Source of the DNA: an uncultured Gammaproteobacteria bacterium
Lineage (GTDB): Bacteria; Pseudomonadota; Gammaproteobacteria; Eutrophobiales; Eutrophobiaceae
Assembly: GCA_943788005.1 (NCBI GenBank)
Contig: CALSOP010000002.1
Location: forward strand, 588,573 to 652,572
Reading direction: 5' to 3'
DNA length: 64,000 nucleotides
The notes below the pieces were generated by a model. The model did no database searches. It was given only the letters and a program-made list of their open reading frames with translations, and was not told the DNA's origin. Below are positions 11,989-62,909 of this stretch, one piece after another (within the stretch, counting starts at the first letter, position 1; every line of letters starts with the position of its first letter). The translations under genes and the position numbers were made by a program.

Positions 11989-13068
11989 CTAACTCTGCCC
12001 CTGCAAAGTAGTATCATCACTTTCGTGTGTCGGCCAAACATTGATTAAGGCCTTAACCAAAGTCGCTAAAGGAATAGCAAAGAACACACCCAGGAAACCC
12101 CACAAGCCACCAAAGACAAGAATCGCAACAATGATTGCAACCGGATGCAAGTTAACAGCTTCTGAAAAAAGTATTGGCACTAAAACATTACCGTCTAGAA
12201 ACTGAATGACGCCATAGGCTACCAATAGCCAGACAAAATCGGGTGTTAAACCCCATTGGAAGTAAGCAACAAAAGCGATCGGTAGCGTAACTACTGCAGC
12301 ACCAATGTAGGGAATCAACACAGACAAACCCACTATCAAACCTAACAGTGGCGCATAATTAAGACCAAATAAAACAAAAGTAATATAGGAAGCGCTTCCA
12401 ACAATTATGATCTCGTTGAATTTACCACGCACATAATTACCTATCTGCGCATCCATCTCTATCCAGATCTCATTTATTAGTCGCCTCTCTTTGGGCAGAA
12501 AACGTCCCAGCCAATCTATGATGAGTTCCTTATCTTTTAGAAAAAAGAAGATCATAAGTGGCACCAATACAAGATAAACGAGTACTGTAATAATGGCGGG
12601 TATCGAAGCGACAGAAATTGAAAGCACACTCCCCCCAAGCTCGCTAAAACCCTGACGAATCGTGATGATCAATTGACCGACATAATCTTCTGAAATGAAC
12701 TCGGGATATTGCCCTGGTAACTGCAATAACAAGGCTTGTCCATTATTAATCATATCCGGCACTTCCTGAAAAAACTGACTTACCTGCTTTGATAATAGGG
12801 GCAACAGCCCGAATAGGATAAACATCATAAAGGCGACAAATAAGAGATAAACAAGATTAACTGCCAAAAACCTTGAGGATATTTTTCTTTGTAACTTGGC
12901 TACGCCACCTTCAAGTAAATAAGCAATGACCATCGCCGCTAACAACGGTGCTAACATCTTACCCATTGTTAGCAAGACAATAGCACTAAGAACCAGCAAA
13001 ACGACTAATAATGCCGCTTGCGGATCAGTAAAGTATCGTCGATACCATGAATTAATAAACTCAAACAT
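11989..13068 (-). CDS. AI-2E/PerM family membrane transporter
   Basis: The 359-residue protein has eight or so membrane segments and the layout of the AI-2E exporter-like family: an N-terminal pair, a soluble middle section (FFQEVPDMINNGQALLLQLPGQYPEF) and a C-terminal bundle containing GSASYITFVLFGLNYAPLLG and IPYIGAAVVTLPIA. Members export or exchange various solutes including Na+/H+; the substrate here cannot be inferred. Its start lies 110 bp downstream of a strong terminator (13178-13209) that is itself behind a sigma-54 promoter, so part of its transcription may depend on read-through. Confidence 0.82.
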   Translation of the reverse strand: MFEFINSWYRRYFTDPQAALLVVLLVLSAIVLLTMGKMLAPLLAAMVIAYLLEGGVAKLQRKISSRFLAVNLVYLLFVAFMMFILFGLLPLLSKQVSQFFQEVPDMINNGQALLLQLPGQYPEFISEDYVGQLIITIRQGFSELGGSVLSISVASIPAIITVLVYLVLVPLMIFFFLKDKELIIDWLGRFLPKERRLINEIWIEMDAQIGNYVRGKFNEIIIVGSASYITFVLFGLNYAPLLGLIVGLSVLIPYIGAAVVTLPIAFVAYFQWGLTPDFVWLLVAYGVIQFLDGNVLVPILFSEAVNLHPVAIIVAILVFGGLWGFLGVFFAIPLATLVKALINVWPTHESDDTTLQGQS

Positions 13069-13177
13069 CTTTTTAAATAGTTAAATGTAAATTATTTTCA
13101 TCATAACGATATCTTACCTAGACAGCGAGTTTACATAGGCACGTATATCTAAATTACTGACAAAATTATATGGTATT

Positions 13178-13209
13178 AAAAAAAAAGGGCGCCGGAGGGG
13201 GTGGCGCCC
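13178..13209 (-). terminator. Strong intrinsic terminator of the candidate sRNA
   Basis: A perfect 7-bp all-G/C stem (GGGCGCC with GGCGCCC) closes a nine-base C-rich loop and is followed on the minus strand by nine T (13186-13178). It has the U-tract only in the minus direction, so it must end a transcript that begins in the 13210-13434 gap, where no protein gene lies on that strand. Confidence 0.85.
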
Positions 13210-13264
13210 GATAAAAATACAACAAAACTGTTGAGGAGGGTTAAGCAAATATAAAATTCTATGT
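13178..13264 (-). ncRNA. Candidate sigma-54-dependent C-rich small RNA (or terminated leader of the AI-2E permease gene)
   Basis: Starting twelve bases after the -12 element, the minus strand would give an 87-nt RNA. Its 5' part is AU-rich and then exposes CCCUCCUC (13233-13240). A 5-bp hairpin CAACA-GUUU-UGUUG follows (13220-13233), then a U-rich single strand typical of Hfq sites, then a terminator stem GGGCGCC/GGCGCCC (13187-13209) with the nine-base loop ACCCCCUCC and nine U. No ORF fits inside. C-rich loops complementary to GGAGG are typical of sRNAs that block ribosome binding. It matches no family I know; it is not Qrr. It could also be an attenuated leader for the gene at 13068. Confidence 0.6.
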
Positions 13265-13274
13265 GTATCTTTAT

Positions 13275-13290
13275 TGCAGGTGTTGTGCCA
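13275..13290 (-). promoter_or_regulatory. Sigma-54 (-24/-12) promoter
   Basis: TGGCACAACACCTGCA on the minus strand keeps the invariant GG and GC dinucleotides ten bases apart and matches the consensus TGGCACG-N4-TTGCW except at two positions. The same TGGCAC-N6-TGC pattern occurs before the pqqA genes. Predicted start is about 13264. The upstream region to 13434 is AT-rich and holds GGTGCATTGCAATACC, a partial dyad that might bind an activator. Confidence 0.65.
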
Positions 13291-13434
13291 ATGTTTGTTT
13301 TTAATATATTTCAGTAACTTAGCTTACAAATAATTCGTATATGTTTAAGAATTGCACTACGGCGGTGAGTTTTAGGACGCATATGGTGCATTGCAATACC
13401 TGTTTTATGAATCTGAATAATATTTATATATCCA

Positions 13435-14487
13435 ATGGATAAATCACAATTATCTAGTCATATAAAATCGTGGGGGACTGAATTAGGCTTCCAACAAGTT
13501 GGTATTACAACGACTGATCTGGAAGAGGATGAGGCGCACCTTATAAACTGGCTGAAAGAAGAACGCCATGGTGAGATGTCGTATATGCAGCGACATGGTA
13601 CGAAACGAAGTCGCCCAAGCGATCTTGTGCCGGGCACTATCAGTGTTATTTCTCTGCGAATGGATTACTTACCCCCCTCTAGTAAACATCCGGCTCAGGT
13701 ATTAAAGAATAAGGAGCTTGCGTATGTTTCCCGATATGCAATGGGCCGTGATTACCACAAACTTATGCGTCGGCGTATTCAGAAACTAGCCACCAAAATA
13801 GAAACACATTACGGAGATTTTGGTTATCGCTGTTTTGTCGATAGCGCACCAATCCTGGAAAAAGCATTAGCACGAAATGCAGGACTGGGATGGATAGGTA
13901 AACACAGCAACCTCATCAACCCTAAAGCAGGCTCATGGTTTTTCCTGGGTGAGATTTATACCGACTTACCGCTCGAAATTGACAAGCCTTTTACAGAACA
14001 TCATTGCGGAAGCTGTAACGCTTGTATCGACATATGCCCGACTCAAGCAATTGTTGGCCCTATGCAGGTTGATGCGCGTCGTTGTATATCTTATTTGACA
14101 ATAGAACTACGCAGTTCAATCCCGGAAGAATTTCGCAAGATGATTGGTAACCGTGTTTATGGTTGTGATGATTGCCAATTAATCTGTCCATGGAATAAAT
14201 TTGCCAAGAACAGTGAAGAAGAAGATTTTCGCGTGCGTAATGGCTTGGATGCACCCACATTAATTGAATTATTTGCCTGGACAGAGGCTGAGTTTCTAAA
14301 GAATACCGAAGGTTCTGCCATTCGGCGTATAGGGTATGAATGTTGGTCCAGAAATATAGCTGTTGGTTTAGGTAACGCAACTAAAACTGATGGAACAATT
14401 AATGCATTAAGGTCTCGAGAAAATGATCCTTCTGTAATGGTGCGTGAACATGTTTCGTGGGCGCTTGCCCAACATGAGTGTCACTAA
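13435..14487 (+). CDS. queG: Epoxyqueuosine reductase QueG
   Basis: QueG reduces epoxyqueuosine to queuosine in tRNA, the last step of queuosine synthesis, using cobalamin and two [4Fe-4S] clusters. The 350-residue length is normal. The ferredoxin-like part shows HHCGSCNACIDICPTQAI near residue 187 and then CDDCQLICPWN near 239, together with a conserved Cys at RRCISY between them, which supply the two clusters. The N-terminal half contains the conserved SAPILEKALARNAGLGWIGKH. It stands alone on the plus strand and ends 15 bp from the convergent NfeD gene. Confidence 0.95.
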   Translation: MDKSQLSSHIKSWGTELGFQQVGITTTDLEEDEAHLINWLKEERHGEMSYMQRHGTKRSRPSDLVPGTISVISLRMDYLPPSSKHPAQVLKNKELAYVSRYAMGRDYHKLMRRRIQKLATKIETHYGDFGYRCFVDSAPILEKALARNAGLGWIGKHSNLINPKAGSWFFLGEIYTDLPLEIDKPFTEHHCGSCNACIDICPTQAIVGPMQVDARRCISYLTIELRSSIPEEFRKMIGNRVYGCDDCQLICPWNKFAKNSEEEDFRVRNGLDAPTLIELFAWTEAEFLKNTEGSAIRRIGYECWSRNIAVGLGNATKTDGTINALRSRENDPSVMVREHVSWALAQHECH

Positions 14488-62637: not shown

Positions 62638-62712
62638 TTACTTGTTGTTGATGTACATTGTTACTTCAAAACCAAAACGAATGTCGCTGTATTCAGGTGT
62701 TTGCCAGTTCAT
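62638..62712 (-). CDS. pqqA: PQQ precursor peptide PqqA, copy 1 (downstream)
   Basis: A 24-codon gene on the minus strand encodes MNWQTPEYSDIRFG followed by FEVTMYINNK. The E-V-T-M-Y core contains the Glu (residue 16) and Tyr (residue 20) that PqqE joins to build pyrroloquinoline quinone. A Shine-Dalgarno GAGGA lies seven bases before the ATG, identical to that of copy 2. It differs from copy 2 by one residue (Ser 9 for Asn 9). Its stop is 20 bases from the bidirectional terminator. No pqqB-E lies in the window. Confidence 0.92.
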   Translation of the reverse strand: MNWQTPEYSDIRFGFEVTMYINNK

Positions 62713-62758: not shown

Positions 62759-62833
62759 TTATTTGTTGTTAATATACATTGTTACTTCAAAACCAAAACG
62801 AATGTCGTTGTATTCAGGTGTTTGCCAGTTCAT
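62759..62833 (-). CDS. pqqA: PQQ precursor peptide PqqA, copy 2 (upstream)
   Basis: This first copy in the transcript encodes MNWQTPEYNDIRFG followed by FEVTMYINNK, 24 residues, with the same Glu 16/Tyr 20 pair. Its ATG lies 50 bp after the start predicted from the sigma-54 promoter. The gap to copy 1 is 46 bp. Both copies are intact and have kept their reading frame while changing only at a silent or conservative level, which supports use of both. Confidence 0.92.
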   Translation of the reverse strand: MNWQTPEYNDIRFGFEVTMYINNK

Positions 62834-62893: not shown

Positions 62894-62909
62894 AGCAGAT
62901 CATGTGCCA
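62894..62909 (-). promoter_or_regulatory. Sigma-54 (-24/-12) promoter of the tandem pqqA genes
   Basis: TGGCACATGATCTGCT on the minus strand keeps GG and GC with ten bases between and matches TGGCACG-N4-TTGCW except at two positions. The start is expected near 62883, giving a 50-nt leader before pqqA copy 2. The leader (62834-62883) is AT-rich without a clear structure. Confidence 0.65.

Follow-up and report, generated by a model that had tools for sequence, protein, structure and literature searches.

The intergenic region between a perM-like and a divergent queG-like gene raises the question of whether it holds a small RNA (sRNA) gene and, if so, which signal would switch this gene on and what its product would do. 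In the window (the whole stretch of DNA analysed, 64,000 nucleotides, from an assembly that is 85% complete), the initial annotation had proposed a sigma-54 -24/-12 promoter followed by an RNA of about 87 nts with a C-rich site, a small hairpin, a U-rich stretch and a terminator with a C-rich loop, and each of these elements was located on the minus strand (Table 1). From the position of the -24/-12 promoter, transcription is expected to start near position 13264. The 87-nt RNA is predicted to fold at -18.5 kcal/mol, compared with -10.4 kcal/mol for shuffled sequences, of which 1 in 200 folded as well. In a pattern scan, TGGCAC-N6-TGC was found three times in the window versus 0.43 expected, the other two copies being located before pqqA and within a gene. 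The RNA contains no ATG and, because orthologues also differ by 1-nt indels in the C-rich stretch, a peptide-coding role is disfavoured, in line with the non-coding character that had been proposed.

Table 1. Features of the perM/queG locus, and loci of a second RNA type (positions refer to the window)
Feature	Position	Strand	Basis or remark
Intergenic region holding the sRNA gene	between the perM-like and queG-like genes		sRNA on the minus strand
sRNA gene, ~87 nt	13178..13264	-	5′ end inferred from the promoter; fold z -3.4; covariance-model matches in relatives
Sigma-54 -24/-12 promoter TGGCACAACACCTGC (also given as TTGGCACAACACCTGC)	13276..13290	-	kept in orthologues; rpoN in genome
First C-rich (anti-Shine-Dalgarno) site CCCUCCUC	13233..13240	-	predicted single-stranded
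Small hairpin CAACA-GUUU-UGUUG	13220..13233	-	fold
U-rich core GUUGUAUUUUUAU	13211..13223	-	nearly identical in 8 genus genomes
Intrinsic terminator GGGCGCC-ACCCCCUCC-GGCGCCC-U9	13178..13209	-	fold; compensatory stem changes among orthologues
Second C-rich site ACCCCCUCC, in the terminator loop	13194-13202	-	
Distal NtrC-like site GCACCATATGCGTCC	13375..13389	minus-strand sequence	GCAC-N7-GTGC, one mismatch; position kept across genomes
Proximal NtrC-like site TCACCGCCGTAGTGC	13354..13368	minus-strand sequence	one mismatch
perM-like gene, AI-2E family permease	11989..13068	-	named from sequence; flanks the sRNA
perM promoter-like block CTCGCTG...TTATGATG	13099..13129	-	downstream of the sRNA terminator
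queG-like gene, epoxyqueuosine reductase	13435..14487	+	divergent flank; named from sequence
Second RNA type	L168-L170, L172, L173 (own genome), L174-L181		

The decisive point against a chance origin is that the promoter and the RNA are kept at the same place in relatives. A DNA search of the genus recovered the RNA region in most members, and the promoter and RNA at the perM/queG locus are intact in 9 of the 12 genus genomes and strongly diverged in the genera g11 and g12. When these sequences are aligned, the flanks are seen to drift, and the promoter, the U-rich core and the terminator, including its C-rich loop, are conspicuous between them. A covariance model of the RNA (R1) detected it in eight genus genomes, a count that includes a decayed copy in G009 (33 bits), while a weak R1 match in G040, where no sigma-54 promoter is visible in the sequence, was set aside. 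Strongly diverged copies were identified in G004, G007, G034 and G035, whose perM/queG regions were fetched via QueG. A second model comprising the promoter and the RNA (R2) recovers the copies found with R1 as well as the diverged and decayed ones, with E-values from 4e-24 to 8e-5; R2 served solely as a sequence profile, because the pairs that it predicts are an artefact caused by the alignment of diverged terminators. The named relatives that bear the RNA, with 87-94% QueG identity, are uncultured gammaproteobacteria, some of them labelled Thiotrichaceae (UBA973, UBA7357). No RNA was found at the perM/queG locus of G003 and G011. In G009 the copy has lost its C-rich sites, including the exposed CUCC-type motif kept among orthologues, and its -12 element, and in G036 the terminator stem and the -24 element are damaged. 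These decayed copies (L009 and L139, respectively) sit in genomes of 1.6-1.9 Mb.

Within the RNA, the stem of the terminator covaries, GGGCGCC/GGCGCCC being replaced by GGGCGUC/GACGCCC and by AGGCGCC/GGCGCCU, and the C-rich loop that it carries is specific to the genus. The 5′ half is poorly kept between genera, and a 5′ hairpin is found in the diverged copies, either GAUAGUC/GACUAUC or GACGGUC/GACUGUC, whose loop contains or adjoins C-rich sequence. Each intact copy has a sigma-54 promoter and a terminator, along with one or two sites of the CUCC type. The two-hairpin, C-rich form for which a covariance search in relatives had been proposed is kept as far as the RNA and its C-rich character are concerned, but the small CAACA/UGUUG hairpin is present in some orthologues and not in all. 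At the sequence level, the sRNA gene is real.

The probable signal for the RNA is given by a feature that the first reading of the locus had missed, namely two NtrC-like sites with a spacing of 21 bp, located upstream of the -24 element at distances of about 77 and 98 bp. Single GCAC-N7-GTGC-like sites carry little weight because their number in the window, 15, is close to the 16.5 expected by chance. A pair of such sites on one face of the helix, inside a stretch of 36 bp, at enhancer distance and kept in position, would not be expected. Perfect GCAC-N7-GTGC sequences occupy the distal position in the diverged G004, G007, G034 and G035, and the P-II (glnK/glnB) loci of the genus carry perfect sites 81-121 bp upstream of sigma-54 promoters. 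NtrC scores above the curated cut-off in 10 of the 12 genus genomes and RpoN is likewise present in 10 of the 12, the window's own genome, with its ntrC on contig C1, being included in both counts. In keeping with control by NtrC, no NtrC was found above the cut-off in G011 (99% complete), which has no RNA at the locus; against it, G003, equally devoid of the RNA at the locus, does have ntrC, and G010 has the RNA with no ntrC or rpoN found in an 87%-complete assembly.

That some enhancer-binding protein besides NtrC switches on this sigma-54-dependent sRNA is unlikely. NtrC-like proteins are numerous in the window's own 2.4-Mb genome (G000), where 33 matches to the NtrC profile, several of them full-length NtrC-like enhancer-binding proteins, make sigma-54 control seem extensive, and both upstream activator sequences (UAS) in the window carry one mismatch. 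However, the perfect NtrC-type UAS of the diverged orthologues is that of the P-II promoters, at a matching distance.

The reading that we favour, and hold to be rather likely, is that of a stand-alone, trans-acting sRNA activated by NtrC and sigma-54, which would mask Shine-Dalgarno sequences under nitrogen limitation and is probably made in nitrogen starvation to shut off selected mRNAs. The promoter, the activator sites, the structure of the RNA and its retention in relatives can be read from the DNA itself, as can the ntrC and rpoN genes; transcription, nitrogen control, Hfq binding and the targets are what we infer. Upon nitrogen limitation, NtrC-P would bind the two upstream sites and activate the sigma-54 RNA polymerase at 13290-13276, and an RNA of about 87 nts would be made that stops at the U-rich terminator of the gene. 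Hfq, for which the GUUGUAUUUUUAU core is a possible binding stretch, probably assists in this. The two C-rich patches, one single-stranded and the other in the terminator loop, would then base-pair with selected mRNAs at their G-rich Shine-Dalgarno regions and so keep them from being translated.

Pairing of the RNA with many ribosome-binding sites is plausible. Of the 60 translation starts predicted in the window, however, only 8 have GGAGG, GAGG or AGGAG, and the best predicted duplexes reach -14.8 kcal/mol. A scan of five genomes for TGAGGAGG-N3-10-ATG gave 3-8 sites per genome versus 0-4 for the reversed pattern, and sites recurred before a 7Fe ferredoxin gene in three genomes and, in two genomes each, before sucD and before a gene for a membrane protein of unknown function. 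A metX-like gene is a further candidate target. No target that is convincing, conserved and related to nitrogen emerged from this five-genome scan, and the recurrent sites are candidates that may be merely strong Shine-Dalgarno sequences. Instead of pairing with mRNAs, the C-rich patches could capture an RNA-binding protein or a second sRNA: a sigma-54-dependent decoy, CrcZ, is known (PMC8395346), and the C-rich anti-Shine-Dalgarno sRNAs of Caulobacter are themselves sponged (PMC12559287). However, the RNA has no repeated A-rich or GGA motifs and, with just one or two short C-rich sites, offers little for titration, which makes a protein-titrating or sponge role improbable.

The least probable alternative concerns the downstream gene. 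perM most likely has its own promoter, because the promoter-like block lies 3′ of the sRNA terminator and persists, as CTCGCYG...AAGATAYCGYTATSATG, in G003 and G011, the two genomes without the RNA at the locus. The suggestion of the initial annotation that the RNA is a leader terminating before the permease gene is thus disfavoured. In such a leader or attenuator, transcription from 13264 would usually stop at the terminator and the regulated output would be read-through into perM. Although the RNA lies upstream of perM on the same strand, with 109 nts between terminator and start codon, and synteny holds wherever it is found, the terminator is strong, neither an upstream ORF nor an alternative antiterminator fold was seen in the MFE or centroid structures, and perM in other relatives has no such leader.

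As a putative stand-alone sRNA of the anti-Shine-Dalgarno type, the RNA can be compared with known regulators. No Rfam family matches it at gathering or relaxed thresholds (none near the RNA at E up to 5), and only a tRNA reaches a gathering score in the window. Qrr and GlmY/GlmZ are sigma-54-dependent sRNAs. Neither they nor CrcZ gave an Rfam match to the window RNA, which has no Qrr core and no A-rich repeats, and the earlier description of a sigma-54 sRNA distinct from Qrr and CrcZ is upheld by this result and by the conservation of the promoter and RNA in relatives. In working principle, the nearest counterpart appears to be the MmgR/aR8 family (Rfam RF00519, suhB), which includes SisA-D in Caulobacter. 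Its members resemble the window RNA in being short, stand-alone sRNAs in which an intrinsic terminator comes after a CUCCC-type anti-Shine-Dalgarno motif. The Caulobacter anti-Shine-Dalgarno 10-mer is thought to mediate the repression of many targets (PMC12559287), and mmgR of S. meliloti is reportedly under positive NtrC control, according to a title cited in PMC9170634. However, MmgR is alphaproteobacterial, and the window RNA is devoid of the MmgR 5′ GCCC hairpin and carries a second C-rich site in its terminator loop. Membership of the family fails because the window RNA has no match to RF00519 and two diverged orthologues score 21.3 and 19.9 bits, below the gathering cut-off of 41. The comparison points to more than one origin of NtrC-controlled anti-Shine-Dalgarno sRNAs, one being that of the window RNA and another that of MmgR in alphaproteobacteria.

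By their control, the nearest counterparts appear to be NrsZ and GlnZ. NrsZ of Pseudomonas, also a stand-alone sRNA, is switched on by NtrB/C and RpoN when nitrogen is limiting (PMC8395346), but it is about 226 nts long, processed, located beside ntrC and activates rhlA, whereas the window RNA has 87 nts and lies between perM and queG, away from ntrC; going by the description of NrsZ, the two are set apart. The surroundings of ntrC in the window's genome showed no sigma-54/UAS pair. In enterobacteria, GlnZ serves nitrogen assimilation as a non-coding arm under RpoN/NtrC control (PMC9731577); in contrast to the window RNA with its own promoter, it is cut from the glnA 3′UTR. In Xanthomonas, sX13 uses C-rich loops to repress mRNAs that have G-rich motifs close to the start codon; it differs in having three C-rich stem-loops and in being Hfq-independent, and no mention of sigma-54 control was found in the text searched (PMC3771888). 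NcS25 of Burkholderia, a constitutive RNA lacking a sigma-54 site (PMC10117139), was rejected as a counterpart.

No such sRNA was found for these uncultured gammaproteobacteria in the libraries searched. If true, the proposed function would add to them a compact nitrogen-stress sRNA, along with a second sigma-54 C-rich RNA of the same cell, and opens the testable question of whether masking of ribosome-binding sites is a general response to nitrogen shortage. The second RNA, an R2 match on the plus strand (L173, G000:C6:123312-123401), is also preceded by a sigma-54 promoter and looks unrelated to the first. It consists of a stem, CAGUAGU/ACUACUG, that presents a AUAUCUCCUCCCCCCCCUUG loop and is followed by a GGGUGCG terminator. 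This type of RNA, a hairpin with a CUCCUCCCCCCCC loop and a terminator, was detected with a third model (R3) in 13 of 53 genomes of the family, the weakest two matches having E-values of about 0.01. Its stems vary in sequence between genera, with the C-rich loop being kept, and no NtrC site was found upstream. Loci of this type often lie upstream of a gene for a small exported protein.

A class-wide search with R2 in a sample of 370 genomes revealed units made of a sigma-54 promoter, a C-rich RNA and a terminator in other gammaproteobacterial families (L225, L226, L227, L230 and L231), of which L230 has a perfect NtrC-type site. These units may be homologous to the window RNA or convergent with it. 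It is possible, though somewhat short of probable, that short anti-Shine-Dalgarno sRNAs driven by sigma-54 form a class that recurs in Gammaproteobacteria and has gone unrecognised. One of its branches, that of the window RNA, would answer to NtrC and the others to other activators of the enhancer-binding type; a translation-silencing RNA arm would therefore be routine in sigma-54 signalling.

Several minor observations were made during these searches. L227 comprises two tandem copies of the unit, those of L226 and L231 precede an asparaginase-like gene, and small heat-shock protein genes are found near L226. The class-level match L232 looks like chance. L228 and L229 are C-rich terminated RNAs (CCUCCUCCAAUCCUCCUUUGGUGG...) with no sigma-54 promoter and were set aside; the former is directly upstream of a gene resembling rplM, encoding ribosomal protein L13. 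Within the window itself, a sigma-54-like promoter, TGGCACATGATCTGC (62895-62909, minus strand), precedes a tandem pair of pqqA-like genes that differ very little (MNWQTPEYNDIRFGFEVTMYINNK) on the same strand, at 62759-62833 and 62638-62712.
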